Numbered from the stretch's first letter, positions 22,506-58,015 are shown. The stretch is 64,000 nucleotides of DNA from SAR86 cluster bacterium SAR86E (GCA_000307935.1 AMWX01000008.1:1-64000); one strand, 5' to 3'. Program-made: numbers and translations. The notes: generated from the letters alone by a model not told the origin.

Positions 22506-23807
22506 ATGGAAATTAAATGGAAATCGTACTCCGCGCTAACAAAAGATGAATTATATGCATTGCTCAATCTTCGTCAGCAAGTTTTTGTTGTTGAGCAGGA
22601 TTGCCCATTTATTGATGCTGATTTTAAAGATCAAGATTGTGATCATTTGCTCGCCTATCAAAACAATGAGCTGGTGGGTTACCTAAGAGTTGCAAAGCCT
22701 GGAAAACGTTACGAAGGGCCAGAAATTGGTAGAGTATTAACTGCTGAAAAGATTAGAAGAGAAGGCGCTGGAAAGATTTTAACTCAGGAGGCCATTGAGT
22801 TTTGTGCATCTAAATACTCAAACTATGAGATAGGTTTATCTGCGCAATACAGACTTCTAAATTTCTATCAGAGTTTTGGTTTTGTTCCTCAGGGAGAGGT
22901 ATATCTAGAGGATGATATAGAGCATATCAAGATGACCTTGACCCCAACATCAAATCACAAAAATTTTTTTCAATGGAGGCTTGGAATTCATCCATTGCTT
23001 ATTTTGGGTGGAGTCATCTCCATTGGAATTATAGGCTCAAGTTTTGTAAAAGAGATTGATGTCTCTCAGCTAAATTGGGTTGCTAAAATTGATGAGAGGG
23101 CAATTTCAAAAGAAAAGTATGAGATTTATTTAGAATCAATTGCTCAATCAAGGAAAACCGGATTAATAGACTCAGATCCAGATAACATCCTTGAAAGAAT
23201 GATCGATGAGGAGTTGTTGATTCAGCGAGGGATTGATCTTGGAATGATTGAGAATGATACCGAGATTAGAAGCACAATTATTCAAAAAATGATTGGCTCA
23301 ATTATTGCTGAGACAAATGATTTACGCATTTCGAGGCAAGATCTTGAAGACTTCTATTCAGTGAATAAAGATTTGTTTACACCGAGCCCTAAGCTGCAAC
23401 TTTTAAAGCTAAGTTTTAAGAGCAATCAAACGATTGCTGGTAATCAAGCTAGAGACTTGCTTATTGAAGGTGATCTTGCTGCTGCAAAACAGCTTGCTGA
23501 AAATGAAGTTATTAGCCTCCCTAATGTTTTGCTGCCGGCAATGAAAATTAGGGAATACATTGGGCCATCTCTCACTCAGATTGCATTGAGCCTGGAGGAA
23601 GGCGAGGTGAGTGAGCTTATAGAGCTTGATGGAAATTTTCATTTATTAGTACCGCTGCAAAAAATTATATCCAGCGCGCCTGAATTTAATGATGTCTATC
23701 AACAAGTGGAGTCTGAATTTATTCGATCCAAAGGGGAGGAGCTGTTAGACGAATATTTAGAGGACTTAAGAAATTGGTATGACGTTGTTAAGGCAAATGA
23801 CCTCTAA
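22506..23807 (+). CDS. Fusion: N-terminal ElaA-like GNAT acetyltransferase, TM segment, C-terminal PpiC/SurA-like peptidyl-prolyl isomerase domain
   Basis: N-term LLNLRQQVFVVEQDCPFIDADFKDQDCDHLLAY (ElaA); hydrophobic LGIHPLLILGGVISIGIIGSSFV; C-term helical region with NILERMIDEELLIQRGIDLG and PpiC-like tail; one uninterrupted ORF. Confidence 0.85.
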   Translation: MEIKWKSYSALTKDELYALLNLRQQVFVVEQDCPFIDADFKDQDCDHLLAYQNNELVGYLRVAKPGKRYEGPEIGRVLTAEKIRREGAGKILTQEAIEFCASKYSNYEIGLSAQYRLLNFYQSFGFVPQGEVYLEDDIEHIKMTLTPTSNHKNFFQWRLGIHPLLILGGVISIGIIGSSFVKEIDVSQLNWVAKIDERAISKEKYEIYLESIAQSRKTGLIDSDPDNILERMIDEELLIQRGIDLGMIENDTEIRSTIIQKMIGSIIAETNDLRISRQDLEDFYSVNKDLFTPSPKLQLLKLSFKSNQTIAGNQARDLLIEGDLAAAKQLAENEVISLPNVLLPAMKIREYIGPSLTQIALSLEEGEVSELIELDGNFHLLVPLQKIISSAPEFNDVYQQVESEFIRSKGEELLDEYLEDLRNWYDVVKANDL

Positions 23808-24984
23808 AAAACTTTTACTTTTATTTATCTTTCAGCTTTTGTTGCCGCTGGAAGCCCATAATCGTAGCGAATCTTACTCAAAGTTTCAGTTTCTCAATCT
23901 TGAAAGTGGAGTTGAGGTAAGGATCACGGGAACCATTAAGAGGGGTATTTTTGAAGCTTTAAATCCAGGCAAAAAATTTCAATCATATGAAGATTTTACA
24001 AACTATTTAGACGATGCAATTATTCTTGGAGATAAATGTAAGCTAAATCAATCAGTAGAGTTCAATGAAAATAATGCAGCTGGCGTTTTAAAATTCTATT
24101 GGGATTTTAAGTGCTCAACATTACCATCCAATGTCTCAATTTCTTTGTTTCAAGACCTAGGCGTTACTCATACCCATATTGCTAGGGGAGTCATTGATGG
24201 CGAAACCATTCCTGAATTTATGTTCGCAAGTCAAACCGATGTTTGGCAGATTAATGCTTTATCTCAACCTAACACAAATCAAAGCTCCTATTGGGGCTAT
24301 TTAATTTCAGGAATCGAGCATATTCTAAGTGGCTTGGATCATCTAGCATTTTTGCTAGGCCTCATTCTGCTATATCAAGGTAGAAACCTCGTTATTGCCA
24401 TTACTGGGTTTACTATCGGACATAGCTTAACCCTTGGTCTTGGTGCTATGAATGTTTTAAGAGTGCATTCAGAGATGGTTGAGATTTTAATAGGATTTTC
24501 AATCTTACTTTTAGCTGTTGAAAAGTTTTTCAAGCATCATTATGAATTTGACAAGGGAATGAAACATTTGATCTTTGCATCTATTGCATTATTTCCATTA
24601 GCGTTATTTGGAGTTCTAGAACCTCTACTAGTATTAGGCTTAGCATTATTTTTAACCATTTATTTAAGTCTGACGTATCATTATTCTTCGCCATGGATCC
24701 CCTTGATGATTACTGTATTTTTTGGATTAATTCATGGACTGGGATTTGCCTCATCAATTGCAGAAGTAGGCATTCCTCAGGATCGATTGTGGCAGATAAT
24801 CTTAAGCTTCAATCTTGGAGTTGAATTGGGTCAGTTAGCAGTAGCTTTTGGAATACTCGGTTTATTTGCATTAGCAAAACGTTATTTTTCTCAGTCTTAT
24901 TTCAGTTCTATTCATAACATTACGGGTGCTGTAGTATTCTCTATGGGAACTTTTTGGTTTGTTACCAGGGCGATGGGAATATGA
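23797..24984 (+). CDS. HupE/UreJ family membrane protein (copy 1)
   Basis: GIEHILSGLDHLAFLLGL, TIGHSLTLGLG, FFGLIHGLGFA, FNLGVELGQLA; start moved to Met at 23797, which begins a signal peptide. Confidence 0.88.
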   Translation: MTSKKLLLLFIFQLLLPLEAHNRSESYSKFQFLNLESGVEVRITGTIKRGIFEALNPGKKFQSYEDFTNYLDDAIILGDKCKLNQSVEFNENNAAGVLKFYWDFKCSTLPSNVSISLFQDLGVTHTHIARGVIDGETIPEFMFASQTDVWQINALSQPNTNQSSYWGYLISGIEHILSGLDHLAFLLGLILLYQGRNLVIAITGFTIGHSLTLGLGAMNVLRVHSEMVEILIGFSILLLAVEKFFKHHYEFDKGMKHLIFASIALFPLALFGVLEPLLVLGLALFLTIYLSLTYHYSSPWIPLMITVFFGLIHGLGFASSIAEVGIPQDRLWQIILSFNLGVELGQLAVAFGILGLFALAKRYFSQSYFSSIHNITGAVVFSMGTFWFVTRAMGI

Positions 24985-49849: not shown

Positions 49850-50803
49850 TTATCCTAAGATTCCAGTCACTCTGTCGATGAGCCAGAAAAAACCCATGCC
49901 ACCCAAAATCAATGAGGTGAGGGTGGCAGATTGCTTATATAAATTAAATTTATGAGCAAGCCATATAACTGATCCAAATATTGGGACTAACATAAGCTGA
50001 CCTGCTTCAATCCCCAGGTTAAAGAACAGCAAAGAAAGTAGCAGCTGCTCATTTCCAATACCAATTCCCGTCAGGGCATTAGCAAAACCTAGCCCATGCA
50101 GCAATCCAAAGCCAAATGCAATGAGCCAGGGTGTAGATTTATATTTTTTGCTTTCACTAACCTCTAATGCAAGATAAATGATAGTGAGCGCAATTATGGC
50201 TTCTACAGTTGCTTGAGGCAGTGACACCAACTCAAATACTGATAAGCCTAAGGTAATGCTGTGAGCAAAAGTGAAAGCTGTAATTGTTTTAACTGCATTT
50301 AAAAATCCAGAAATTAAAAAAAGTAATCCTAGTATGAAGAGGATATGATCATTTCCACTTAATAAATGATCAATACCCAGAGTGAAATATCCAACTGGAT
50401 AAACCTGCTCATTCAATGGGATCTCTATTGATGATCTCTTGAGGTTCATTAGCCCTTCAAACACCTCTCCATTAGAGTGAGTGATTGTTACCAATGCATC
50501 TGTGAGTACGCTCAGGTTATTGACTGAAATTATTTGGCCTTTAAGAGAGTTTGCACAATTTAGCGATATTTTTTCAACTAGATACTTTCCCTTTTGACTA
50601 GGTAATTGGTTCTTTCTCTCGCAACTTTCAGGAAAAAAAACTTCTGCTCTAGCACCTATATTTTTAATAGGGTACATCCAGCTAACCTCGTATTCATTTT
50701 CAACTAGCTCATTTATAACCAGGTGGGCTGGATTAAACTCATGAGAGAATAGTGCCGTTGAGCAAAAAAGTATGGCTAATGTTTTAACGAGCTTACAAGC
50801 CAT
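49850..50803 (-). CDS. HupE/UreJ family membrane protein (copy 2)
   Basis: GIDHLLSGNDHILFILGL, FAHSITLGLS, GFGLLHGLGFA, FNLGIEAGQLM; signal peptide. Confidence 0.88.
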   Translation of the reverse strand: MACKLVKTLAILFCSTALFSHEFNPAHLVINELVENEYEVSWMYPIKNIGARAEVFFPESCERKNQLPSQKGKYLVEKISLNCANSLKGQIISVNNLSVLTDALVTITHSNGEVFEGLMNLKRSSIEIPLNEQVYPVGYFTLGIDHLLSGNDHILFILGLLFLISGFLNAVKTITAFTFAHSITLGLSVFELVSLPQATVEAIIALTIIYLALEVSESKKYKSTPWLIAFGFGLLHGLGFANALTGIGIGNEQLLLSLLFFNLGIEAGQLMLVPIFGSVIWLAHKFNLYKQSATLTSLILGGMGFFWLIDRVTGILG

Positions 50804-51603
50804 TAGAACTTATAATCTGGATTGATGATGACTCTGTATTGAGACCTTATTTCATTAATATATTCATCAATCGCTTTATCTTGGGCTTGCGATAGATAGT
50901 CTTGTTGAACCTTTATTAGTACTTTTTCTAGGGGAGGAGAGAATCCATTTTGAACCTCCTTTAAGAGAATAATATGTTGACCAAAAACAGATTCATGAGG
51001 CCCGGACCACTCATTCAAAGAAAGATTCTCGATAGTTGAAAAGAATAACTCGCCAAAATTTTTTTTAATTTCATTTGCGCTGTTTTGATAAAAGTTTTTT
51101 CCTAGAAAAAAGGGATCACCTATTATTTCAGTCCCATTTGTTTTATAGCCATTGAAAGCTTTGGCTGCTCTTTCTTTGGCATTAGACTCCTTTGAAAAAT
51201 AGTGATGTGAGAAAGAGTAGGTTGCTGGAACAAAGTAATTATCTTTATTTAGATCAAAAAAATTTTCTAATTCTTCTTGCGATGGATCATCTGGAATCGT
51301 TTCTTGTTTTAAAAAAGTAATTTTCTGAGCCAATCTTCTCTTGATAATTCGATCTTCTTGATCTAACTCTAAAAGCAATGCTTCTCTGTATAGAATCTCT
51401 TCTTGAACAAAGTTATTGATAATACTAACGATCTCTTCATCACTTGGAGGTCTTCCAACTTGTGACTTCCATGCCGAAAGAAGACTGGTTAATTCTTGAT
51501 CTGAAATATAAATATCTTTTGAGCTTTGCTCGGAATTGAACCCAATATCAAGGAAAAAAATTAATAGTCCAATTGCAAAAAATACAAGTATTCTAAGATT
51601 CAC
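50803..51603 (-). CDS. PpiC/SurA-like peptidyl-prolyl isomerase, membrane anchored
   Basis: N-terminal TM, QEEILYREALLLELDQEDRIIKRRLAQKI, GPHESVFGQHIILLKEV. Confidence 0.82.
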   Translation of the reverse strand: MNLRILVFFAIGLLIFFLDIGFNSEQSSKDIYISDQELTSLLSAWKSQVGRPPSDEEIVSIINNFVQEEILYREALLLELDQEDRIIKRRLAQKITFLKQETIPDDPSQEELENFFDLNKDNYFVPATYSFSHHYFSKESNAKERAAKAFNGYKTNGTEIIGDPFFLGKNFYQNSANEIKKNFGELFFSTIENLSLNEWSGPHESVFGQHIILLKEVQNGFSPPLEKVLIKVQQDYLSQAQDKAIDEYINEIRSQYRVIINPDYKF

Positions 51604-51619
51604 TTCAGTTTCCTAAAAT

Positions 51620-53695
51620 TTATAAGGGAATAATATTTAGCTCACTTGACTTAGGTATATACCAAATAGGAGAAGACCATGCGCGTTCTTGAATCGTTTC
51701 ATCTAGATCAGGTCTTGGCTTGACTCCTGCTTTTAATGCATCCCATGTAGACCATCTACATGTCGGATTTTCTAAAACTCGAACATAATAAAAAGCTTTA
51801 ATAGTTGGATCAAAATCGGGATCCACCCAAGTAGTTTTTAACTCGACCGCTCCGACATCACTTGAGATGGAGCAATTATTGATGTTTACCTTAGCGCCAT
51901 TATCAGGACAGCGATTAGTCATGGGATCTACTGTTAGTCCATCTGAGCATGCAACATCATAAACTTTCTCCTTCGGGGTTCCAGAGGCATTTTCAATCCA
52001 TCCTTTGATGATTTGTACTCTTTGAAGCGGAGCTCCTAATTTATCACGCTGAGCCCAAACTAAGAATTGTGGCGTTTGATTATCTTGGCTAAATAGATCT
52101 GCACCCATGGTGACACCTTTTGCATAGGCATTTTTAACCATATCCTCAGAATCTAAATCAATTGACTGCATGTCAAATCCAGCAAAGAATCTGACTGCCA
52201 TTCTTGTACCTGTTGTAGCGAATGTCTCTTTTCTTTTGAAGGCCTGAAAAATAGAATCTCGAGTATTTTCTTCTGCCCATGCAACTGCCAGGCCTGATGC
52301 ACTCCATTGATCAAATCCAACATCTGCATAGGTTCTACCCTCAATATCCTGAATGCTTATAGGCTGATCATAAAGCTCAGCATATTCTTCCAGTTGTTCA
52401 ATTCTATCTGGAGTTAAAGGTACACTTCCTCTGCCCATATCAGTTCCATCCAATACTCCAGCCTTCGACCAATAATTATCTTCATCAAATCCTCCAGCAC
52501 CAGTATGAGTATCACTTGATCCTATTAGACCAAATTTATAAGGATTACCACGACCTTCCCAGTCTAAGGTTAGGCCTCTTAAATATGCATCTCTAACATA
52601 GCCTCCTTGGGGCATGCTGTATGTTGGAGGCCTGCTTCCAACTCTTTTATCCATGATTTCAAAATCTGCCCATTCGTCATCTGGAGAAAGAAGTGGGTGA
52701 GTATCAGAGGTTCCTTTAACCTGGGTCATTTCAACAACAGGCTCATTTCGCATTCGCTTTTCAGCATATTCTATGCTGATTGGATTTCCTCTAAATGTTT
52801 CAACCTCAAACATTTGGCCATTAGAGCCATTACTATTGTGAGGCATGGCCAAAGAATCGACGCCCTTATCTCTTAAACCATCCATCCATGTCCAAAGATC
52901 TTCTGGATTTATGGAATCAATTCTTGTCCAAGGTCTAATGGGAGCATTTGAAGAATTAAAAATAACATTTCTGTGCAAGTTGCCACCCTCAACATCTGTT
53001 GAAGTTGTAAATTCATAGCCAATGAACGTAGTAAATTCTCCTGGTTTATTGAATTCTTCTGCTGCATTTGCAACATCTGCCCATGCAGATTTATGCACAT
53101 CATAATCAAATGATTGAAGGGCTACTTGAATGTTGTTAGTGAACCAAGCTTTCCAAACTTTTGGATGCCAATATGGGTAAGGCTTGACGATTGCTTGAGT
53201 TAAGACAGAACTGAACAGGTCGGCTCTTGCGCCCAGTGAATCAACCGTAACATTTTCGGGTCTATTCAGATTATGCATTGGCTTGGTCCATTCATTTTTT
53301 GACATCTCTGAGGATGTATCAGCATAATTTTCTATCATCCCCATGTAAAAACCATGATCAGTAACTGCATAAAAATCCAAAGGCTCTCTTAATTTCATAT
53401 CAAAACCTAAAGGATGCTTGATGGCCTCACCTTTTGCATATCTGTAAGCATCATAAGGAGTAGCTGTCACACCAAAAATATATGCATCAAATGAATACTT
53501 CGTATGAACATGCAAGTCACCATAAAGAGGAATTCGGTCTGGATTAGAGGGTGCAGCATTTTCCGTTTCCGGCTGATCTATTGAAAAGTCAACAATCTCC
53601 AAAGCTGAATCAGTTTGAAAGTTTGTATAAAACCCTGTCGCATATATCAAAAAAATTGTTGAAACAACCACTAGACCTATAAAAGATTTATTCAT
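51620..53695 (-). CDS. DUF3604 protein, predicted PHP-like hydrolase, N-terminal membrane anchor/signal
   Basis: YGDLHVHTKYSFDAYIFG, DFYAVTDHGFYMG, AMPHNSNGS, GLIGSSDTHTGAG. Confidence 0.9.
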   Translation of the reverse strand: MNKSFIGLVVVSTIFLIYATGFYTNFQTDSALEIVDFSIDQPETENAAPSNPDRIPLYGDLHVHTKYSFDAYIFGVTATPYDAYRYAKGEAIKHPLGFDMKLREPLDFYAVTDHGFYMGMIENYADTSSEMSKNEWTKPMHNLNRPENVTVDSLGARADLFSSVLTQAIVKPYPYWHPKVWKAWFTNNIQVALQSFDYDVHKSAWADVANAAEEFNKPGEFTTFIGYEFTTSTDVEGGNLHRNVIFNSSNAPIRPWTRIDSINPEDLWTWMDGLRDKGVDSLAMPHNSNGSNGQMFEVETFRGNPISIEYAEKRMRNEPVVEMTQVKGTSDTHPLLSPDDEWADFEIMDKRVGSRPPTYSMPQGGYVRDAYLRGLTLDWEGRGNPYKFGLIGSSDTHTGAGGFDEDNYWSKAGVLDGTDMGRGSVPLTPDRIEQLEEYAELYDQPISIQDIEGRTYADVGFDQWSASGLAVAWAEENTRDSIFQAFKRKETFATTGTRMAVRFFAGFDMQSIDLDSEDMVKNAYAKGVTMGADLFSQDNQTPQFLVWAQRDKLGAPLQRVQIIKGWIENASGTPKEKVYDVACSDGLTVDPMTNRCPDNGAKVNINNCSISSDVGAVELKTTWVDPDFDPTIKAFYYVRVLENPTCRWSTWDALKAGVKPRPDLDETIQERAWSSPIWYIPKSSELNIIPL

Positions 53696-56038: not shown

Positions 56039-58015
56039 ATGAAAATTAAAAATAATTTGTTAGTCGTGCTTGTTTTGATTGTCGCATCATGCTCAGATTC
56101 AAATAAATCAACAAATTTAGAAGTATCTTTGCATGATAAACCATTACTGCAAGTTGAAATTCAACCTAGGCCATTGCCTAACCCAAATAAAAATGCATAT
56201 TTTGGTGACCTACATGTTCATACAGCAAATTCATTTGATGCTTATACTTTTGGCACAATTAGTACACCTGCAGACGCATATAAGTATGCGCAAGGTTATC
56301 CAATACTGCATCCAAGCGGATTCCTAATCCAACTTAGCAGACCATTGGATTTTTACGCAGTTACTGACCATGGTGTCTTTATGGGATTGATGAAGGAGGC
56401 TGCTGATACAACCTCTGAATTCTCAAAGTATGAGCTTGCTAAGCCCCTTCACAATTTAAATGAATCAGTAAATGATGGACTCTTTTCTCTTATTAAAAGG
56501 GCTGGTCTCTTTAGACCTTTTGGTCAAGCAGTCAGGAAAGGTCTTGATGATGGAACCATAGATAGCTCTATCATAGAGGAGGTAAGTAAATCAGTATGGC
56601 AACAAACTATTAAAGCTGCTGATGAGGCTTATGCTCCAGGCACTTTCACTACCTTTGCTGCCTACGAATATACTTCCAGTTTTGATCTTTATGATAAATA
56701 TTTACATCGAAATGTCATATTTAAAGATACAAAAGATCTCCCAGCTAAAATTTTTACCAGGGCTGATAGTCAAGATCCTGAGGAGCTCTGGGATTGGATG
56801 AATTTAATGAGATCCAAAGGAGTTGAGAGTCTTGCTATTCCTCATAATTCAAATATCTCTGGAGGAGCTACTTTTGCTCTCATTGATTATAATGGCGGCC
56901 CCATTGATGAAGAGTACACAAAGAAACGAGCTTTCAATGAGCCTTTGGTTGAAATAACTCAAGTCAAAGGCACTTCAGAAACTCATCCATTGCTGTCTAA
57001 AAATGATGAGTGGGCAGCTTTCGAGGTAAAAACGGGAATGGAGGAAGAAAAACTTATCAGTAACTTAAAAGGGAGCTATGTTCGAGATGCATACTTAAGA
57101 GGTTTAAGTCTTGCAGAAAAAGGTTTAAGCAATCCATATAAATTTGGATTAATAGGCTCAAGCGACACGCATGTTTCTGGACCATCAGACAGTGAAGAAG
57201 TTTTTTTCTCAAAAGTAGGCATTCTTGATGCGACAGCTGAGTTGAGAGGCTCTATTCCATTCAAAAGATTCTATGGAACATTTTTAAAGGCGTTGCGACC
57301 CAATATTCTTAAAGAAGTTGATGGTAAAAACTATTTTGCTGCAAACGATCGCGTGATTAATTTTTCAGCTTCCGGTCTTGCTGGTGTTTGGGCTGAAGAA
57401 AATACACGAGAAGCCATTTATGATGCTTTTCGCCGCAAAGAAACATTTGCTACAAGTGGACCACGAATGAAAGTAAGATTTTTTGCAGGCTATGATTTAG
57501 AGAACTCTCAACTTGATGATTTAACTCTTATTCAAGATGCATATGCCAACAGTATTCCGATGGGGGGAACGCTCAATACTGAATCAAATAAAAATCCAAC
57601 GTTTTTAGTTTGGGCGATCGCAGATCCGATGGGAGCTCCATTGCAGAGAACTCAAATTATTAAAGGATGGTTAGAAGATGGAGAGCATAAAGAAAAAGTT
57701 TACGATGTAGCATGTTCTAATGGATTAAGCGTTGATCCTTCGACCAATCGTTGTCCTGATAATGAGGCTTGGGTTGATTTAAGTGATTGTTCTATTAGCG
57801 CAGACTCTGGATCAAGAGAAATGAAAGTTTTTTGGCAAGATCCTGAATTTCAAAATGGCCAGAATACTTTTTATTATTCTAGAGTACTTGAAAATCCAGT
57901 CTGCAGATGGTCAACATGGGATGCAGTTAGAGTTGGTGAAAAGCCTAGATCAGATTTACCTGCCACAATTCAAGAGAGAGCTTGGTCTTCACCTATTTGG
58001 TTAAAGTCAAGTTAA
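56039..58015 (+). CDS. DUF3604 protein, predicted PHP-like hydrolase, lipoprotein
   Basis: Lipobox-like LIVASC; FGDLHVHTANSFDAYTFG, DFYAVTDHGVFMG, IPHNSN, GLIGSSDTHVSG. Confidence 0.9.
   Translation: MKIKNNLLVVLVLIVASCSDSNKSTNLEVSLHDKPLLQVEIQPRPLPNPNKNAYFGDLHVHTANSFDAYTFGTISTPADAYKYAQGYPILHPSGFLIQLSRPLDFYAVTDHGVFMGLMKEAADTTSEFSKYELAKPLHNLNESVNDGLFSLIKRAGLFRPFGQAVRKGLDDGTIDSSIIEEVSKSVWQQTIKAADEAYAPGTFTTFAAYEYTSSFDLYDKYLHRNVIFKDTKDLPAKIFTRADSQDPEELWDWMNLMRSKGVESLAIPHNSNISGGATFALIDYNGGPIDEEYTKKRAFNEPLVEITQVKGTSETHPLLSKNDEWAAFEVKTGMEEEKLISNLKGSYVRDAYLRGLSLAEKGLSNPYKFGLIGSSDTHVSGPSDSEEVFFSKVGILDATAELRGSIPFKRFYGTFLKALRPNILKEVDGKNYFAANDRVINFSASGLAGVWAEENTREAIYDAFRRKETFATSGPRMKVRFFAGYDLENSQLDDLTLIQDAYANSIPMGGTLNTESNKNPTFLVWAIADPMGAPLQRTQIIKGWLEDGEHKEKVYDVACSNGLSVDPSTNRCPDNEAWVDLSDCSISADSGSREMKVFWQDPEFQNGQNTFYYSRVLENPVCRWSTWDAVRVGEKPRSDLPATIQERAWSSPIWLKSS

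Follow-up and report, generated by a model that had tools for sequence, protein, structure and literature searches.

DUF3604 proteins have no assigned function and are mentioned in a single paper of the literature that we searched. In SAR86 cluster bacterium SAR86E, a DUF3604 gene stands at the head of a compact group of three, ahead of the genes for a PpiC-like protein and a HupE/UreJ-type permease, which raises the question of whether these two proteins serve the DUF3604 enzyme or only keep it company. The window that we analyzed comprises 64,000 nucleotides (GCA_000307935.1, AMWX01000008.1:1-64000) of an assembly of 1.4 Mb in 13 contigs that is 88% complete. On its minus strand, DUF3604 protein 1 (691 aa; 51620..53695; PF12228, 747.6 bits; N-terminal membrane anchor or signal) is separated by a 16-bp gap from a membrane-anchored PpiC/SurA-like protein of what we term the short type (266 aa; 50803..51603; PF13145, Rotamase_2, 42.1 bits at a cut-off of 27 bits), the gene for which overlaps by 1 bp that of a short-type HupE/UreJ-2 permease (317 aa; 49850..50803; PF13795, HupE_UreJ_2, 144.9 bits at a curated cut-off of 24.5 bits). 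An earlier, sequence-only reading had described these three ORFs and both junctions with coordinates that we reproduced exactly, and its second PpiC–HupE pair at 22506-24984 is confirmed by ORFs and by Pfam matches above cut-off. The two permease genes of the window are the only HupE_UreJ_2 genes in the whole assembly; the N-terminal extracytoplasmic domain and all four motifs ascribed to both copies are indeed present in both. Near DUF3604 protein 1 lies the gene for DUF3604 protein 2 (658 aa, lipoprotein-like; 56039..58015, plus strand; 51% identity to copy 1), and in a sister genus (L141) a DUF3604 gene for ~660 aa lies immediately 3' of HupE; protein 2 is likely served by the same short PpiC–HupE pair.

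A search with short-type HupE provided 80 loci for examination, the titles of which name Pseudomonadota, Verrucomicrobiota, Planctomycetota, Bacteroidota, Cyanobacteriota, Acidobacteriota, Nitrospirota, Campylobacterota, and other phyla. Immediately 5' of HupE, 75 of the 77 readable loci have a PpiC from the same subfamily (71 detected by profile and four by tblastn; two lack PpiC, and three further loci are cut at a contig end), in a sample that is biased toward this subtype because PpiC-linked sequences made up the query. An upstream PpiC is missing at L133, whose genus has the gene elsewhere, at L164, where bases are masked, and at L222, which is a true exception. In 69 of 112 pairs, the stop codon of one gene overlaps the start codon of the next by 4 or 1 bp. 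The class-sample, order-presence, and divergence tests are free of the query bias; among 369 class genomes, 25 strong PpiC matches score at least 77 bits against an ordinary PpiD/SurA-like background of at most 70 bits, and HupE adjoins 23 of these 25. The two exceptions are G317:C124 and G230, in which PpiC comes after DUF3604 and a different contig carries HupE. The PpiC–HupE pairing is far beyond chance, and the counts from both samples support the proposal that the fixed pair acts as one unit. Our literature search returned nothing relevant on this pairing. At L130/L271 and L134/L139, an amidase or a biotin carboxylase/carboxyltransferase fusion is found directly 5' of PpiC, replacing DUF3604. 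Separately, short HupE is broken into two ORFs in two relatives, at L143 (G010:C1, about 66.1-67.1 kb) and L157/L272 (G070:C1), suggesting frameshift decay or assembly error.

DUF3604 is found within 7 kb of short-type HupE in 54 of the 80 loci; none lies within that distance in the other 26, some of which are on short contigs. That PpiC is linked to HupE more tightly than is DUF3604 (75/77 versus 54/80) would be expected if PpiC–HupE were a metal uptake system in its own right, with PpiC folding the extracytoplasmic domain of HupE itself and with DUF3604, not directly matured by the pair, often a neighbor as a user of the imported metal or via shared regulation. Three loci in which the pair persists and the locus has no DUF3604 (L194, L228, and L236) point in the same direction. 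Against such autonomy stands the all-or-none presence of the pair with DUF3604 over the whole order and class. In class genomes outside the window's order, DUF3604 and strong PpiC occur together in 15, PpiC alone in three, DUF3604 alone in four, and neither in 343 (Fisher 2e-20); the 15 double-positive genomes represent 15 different families, and HupE is cut off at contig ends in three of the four genomes with DUF3604 only. Among 100 genomes of the order, all 13 without DUF3604 are also without HupE and strong PpiC, and DUF3604 without HupE is confined to two poorly complete genomes (59% and 68%). The losses are spread over five genera; within one genus, five genomes have all three genes and eight have none.

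As the genes are adjacent, a single deletion can remove them all, and co-loss is accordingly the weaker evidence. Stronger cases of retention are furnished by G230 and by genus g8 (L133, L264-L266, and L275), as the genes are unlinked and yet all kept; in genus g8, DUF3604 and both members of the short pair are encoded apart from one another. The short HupE of this genus follows a YeiH-like membrane protein (PF03601). One PpiC–HupE pair may accompany two or three DUF3604 genes, as expected of an accessory set that serves a family. The surroundings also hold GST, DsbA-like, dehydrogenase, and sulfatase genes, as they would if the three genes were passengers of a catabolic or metal-resistance island with no functional interaction; given their recurrence in unrelated contexts and phyla, their retention when unlinked, and a co-divergence that exceeds taxonomy, we judge this explanation to be extremely improbable. 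DUF3604–PpiC–HupE is thus well supported as a conserved module that recurs in many phyla and whose members come and go together. The tie to DUF3604, advanced as a conjecture in the sequence-only reading, is real rather than incidental on the evidence of adjacency, all-or-none presence, and correlated divergence, and the pairing, far from being restricted to this lineage and devoid of co-evolution, spans many phyla with correlated divergence.

The co-divergence was quantified by Mantel correlation. Between HupE and PpiC distances, the correlation is 0.65, and a partial r of 0.60 is left once taxonomy is controlled for, with a correlation of at most 0.25 between either protein and taxonomy; the correlations of HupE and PpiC with DUF3604 are 0.39-0.42, a difference that again favors a pair operating by itself. 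The PpiC and HupE trees fall into matching short and long sets (SH-aLRT 96 for the short HupE clade, 94 for the long HupE clade, and 100 for the PpiC split). The long set takes in members from outside the order (G122, G204, and G449), and short pairs are present as well in two of these. The matching splits and these members indicate two ancient lineages, each still paired, and not a local duplication. A recent co-duplication of the window's two pairs, which had been a possibility at the outset, is ruled out by the occurrence of both lineages outside the order, in other families of the class.

The long-type pair of the window is encoded on the plus strand. The sequence-only reading had a second PpiC gene here; a PpiC domain is present, not as a protein of its own, but as the C-terminal half of a GNAT–TM–PpiC fusion (433 aa; 22506-23807; GNAT and Rotamase_2 matches, the latter at 31.9 bits), in which the GNAT domain occupies residues 1-~148 (about 22506-22949). 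This gene overlaps by 29 bp that of the long-type HupE/UreJ-2 permease (401 aa; 23779-24984; PF13795, 128.8 bits), whose predicted mature N-terminal residue is His27 (codon 23857-23859). GNAT is fused in-frame in the window's family f1 and is a separate gene just upstream, by the long pair, in the order's sister families f2 and f3, so the fusion (or split) arose within the order. A divergent DUF3604-like gene of ~750-780 aa adjoins the long pair in L163 (2461-4731), L244 (9565-11901), and L249, and its family (~730-780 aa), which PF12228 covers only in part, tracks the long pair even when unlinked (for example, G000:C12:210113-212260 and 120019-121992). In the window's order, the DUF3604-like enzyme of ~750 aa is encoded elsewhere in the genome, away from the long pair; the enzyme and long HupE are both present in 50 genomes, with long HupE only in two, the enzyme only in nine, and neither in 39 (Fisher 0.0007 by genus). 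In genera g12 and g19, the enzyme occurs although the long pair is missing; the dependence is therefore not strict. The long pair is an ancient parallel set with this separately encoded enzyme as its likely client. That the repeated partner of both pair types is the DUF3604 family, and not other metalloenzymes, further argues against uptake by the pair on its own account.

What the client might be is suggested by its conserved residues. Across 46 homologues, the invariant columns of DUF3604 (H62, H64, D107, H114, H241, H286, D395, and H397) form, by motif comparison, the HxH…DH…H…DxH pattern of a PHP-like metal signature, and on these motifs we predict that DUF3604 is a PHP-like metalloenzyme. 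Matches to CehA/McbA metallohydrolase profiles are weak, being found for 21 of the 46 proteins, at best 1.5e-4, and below family cut-offs; an alignment with YciV-like proteins covers PHP motifs I and II, at a probability of only 9%. Foldseek found no PHP fold match for the AF2 model of DUF3604 protein 1 (pLDDT 85), its matches being only to the β-sandwich part, and a PDB sequence search with DUF3604 gave spurious matches only. Among 90 DUF3604 N-termini, 54 are signal-like, 19 lipoprotein, one Tat-like, and 16 unclear, and export is predicted to be mainly by Sec. With such N-termini, most DUF3604 proteins should fold in the periplasm, where the chaperone region of PpiC and the N-domain of HupE are also predicted to reside.

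For the PpiC-like protein, the profile of the short type matches PEB4/Cj0596-type, SurA, and PrsA structures (E 3.8e-13 to 3rfw). Both catalytic histidines are kept in the short type of the window's order; in most short types elsewhere, Gln replaces the first parvulin His, and most of the site is gone from the long type. PPIase activity is therefore doubtful, and a chaperone function is the safer prediction.

In the permease, HxxxGxDH is invariant (H146, G150, D152, and H153), with Ile/Leu in place of the Pro of the family signature HPxxGxDH in the first transmembrane helix. An AF2 model of short HupE (pLDDT 90.6) places a β-sandwich at residues 26-127 and, after it, seven to eight helices. 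Codons 21-135 (50399..50743, minus strand) encode the predicted mature N-terminal His21 and the extracytoplasmic β-sandwich domain, with cleavage predicted between STALFS and HEFNPAHL. Of 54 short-type relatives, 40 have H and 14 have D directly after the predicted cleavage, and none has any other residue; these residues were read off the alignment, as a simple rule for signal peptides overlooked many genuine sites. In the long type, H27, C87, and C112 are invariant in 9/9 homologues. A Foldseek search with the N-domain returned ZrgA as the best solved match (E 3.2e-4), with 9GCE at rank 4. HupE/UreJ-2 proteins of other subtypes that likewise begin with His or Asp are without PpiC, a further point against a self-contained uptake system in which PpiC folds the HupE domain. 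We found no earlier description of the PpiC-linked HupE subtypes. Two other subtypes were observed in passing: one with a mature start of HKPSDSY or similar (L087, L094, L099, L107, L115, L116, and L122), which mostly follows a repeat-rich exported protein of ~390-430 aa, probably TPR, and one starting HGMSEAEK/HGMSEEEK (L083, L084, L086, L091, and L095), which has no large N-domain, apparently keeps the N-terminal His, and in several cases follows a conserved protein of ~102 aa.

The family name and the H-x3-G-x-DH signature fit HupE/UreJ, and characterized HupE proteins move Ni or Co; both would accord with nickel import for cytoplasmic nickel enzymes, the classic HupE/UreJ role, with the operon neighbors incidental. 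No [NiFe] hydrogenase was found in 60 relatives and urease-like matches are fragmentary and score 26 bits at best, which makes this classic reading unlikely, and the presence of the pair tracks DUF3604, not nickel enzymes. The association with nickel carried over from the sequence-only reading is thus disfavored for classic nickel enzymes, and we regard such a role as very unlikely. By analogy, the metal could be Cu or Ni (from the anglerases, below), Zn (from the ZrgA fold and PHP enzymes), or Ni or Co (from characterized HupE proteins).

Taken together, we propose that PpiC and HupE constitute an accessory set for folding and metal-loading exported metalloenzymes of the DUF3604 family, a proposal to which we give an even chance. 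DUF3604 would be exported by Sec in an unfolded state; the N-anchored PpiC/SurA-like chaperone may contact it physically and aid its folding in the periplasm; the N-terminal-His β-sandwich and permease of HupE/UreJ-2 may capture a transition metal at the folding site, and a hand-off of this metal would keep the PHP-like, presumably catalytic, site supplied. The fuller form of this proposal, in which a dedicated periplasmic maturation system has two ancient forms, one joining the short pair to classic DUF3604 and the other the long pair to the ~750-aa DUF3604-like enzyme, that fold and metallate exported PHP-like hydrolases, is held more tentatively, at somewhat less than even confidence. Against maturation count the incomplete parvulin site, the motif-based PHP assignment, the 26 loci with no DUF3604 within 7 kb, the four genomes with DUF3604 and no detected PpiC, and the possibility that a single deletion explains co-loss; moreover, the HupE–PpiC bond is tighter than that of either protein with DUF3604, and a HupE that imported metal only to the cytoplasm would be of no direct help to a Sec-exported enzyme. 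Transport may be inward, uptake being proposed for anglerases (PMC12537917), and this would also suit a pair that takes up metal by itself; weighing the evidence on both sides, we consider that account possible, if rather improbable. That DUF3604 is tied in many phyla to both a chaperone and a permease that binds metal opens its cofactor and maturation to experiment. Should maturation be correct, the newly described anglerase permeases would be extended from general metal fishing to possible client-specific metal delivery, a poorly understood step for Sec-exported metalloenzymes.

Each component of the proposed module resembles a known system in part. DUF3604 bears a weak profile likeness to CehA/McbA and PHP-type metallohydrolases and possesses an extra β-sandwich domain. 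The PpiC-like component shares profile similarity with the PEB4/Cj0596, SurA, and PrsA foldases over the chaperone and parvulin regions, and differs in its N-terminal TM anchor, degenerate parvulin site, and fixed HupE partner. The HupE N-domain is similar in fold to zinc-binding ZrgA of Vibrio cholerae (8EZW/8F1B; PMC9820375; TM 0.61 over target), whereas ZrgA serves an ABC importer, has a His-rich loop, and shares only 8% identity. A parallel for the permease is provided by the anglerases Ang-1 and Ang-2 (PMC12537917; PDB 9GCE), HupE/UreJ-2 permeases with an N-terminal His, for which binding of Cu (Kd 74 nM) and Ni (220 nM) is described; like the window HupEs, they combine a signal peptide, a predicted mature N-terminal His, and an extracytoplasmic β-sandwich fused to a HupE/UreJ-2 permease. 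The Ang-1 neighbors reported are DUF4198, indigoidine synthase, and PfkB, with PpiC and DUF3604 absent from the neighbor survey and main text of that paper. By sequence, the window HupEs fall outside Ang-1, with no match to the RbAng-1a N-domain, although L114 matches 9GCE, the copper-binding RbAng-1a domain (1.5e-17). As 9GCE belongs to another HupE/UreJ-2 subtype and PpiC-linked types do not match it by sequence (queries A3, A4, and L206), the window HupEs are anglerase-like but distinct.
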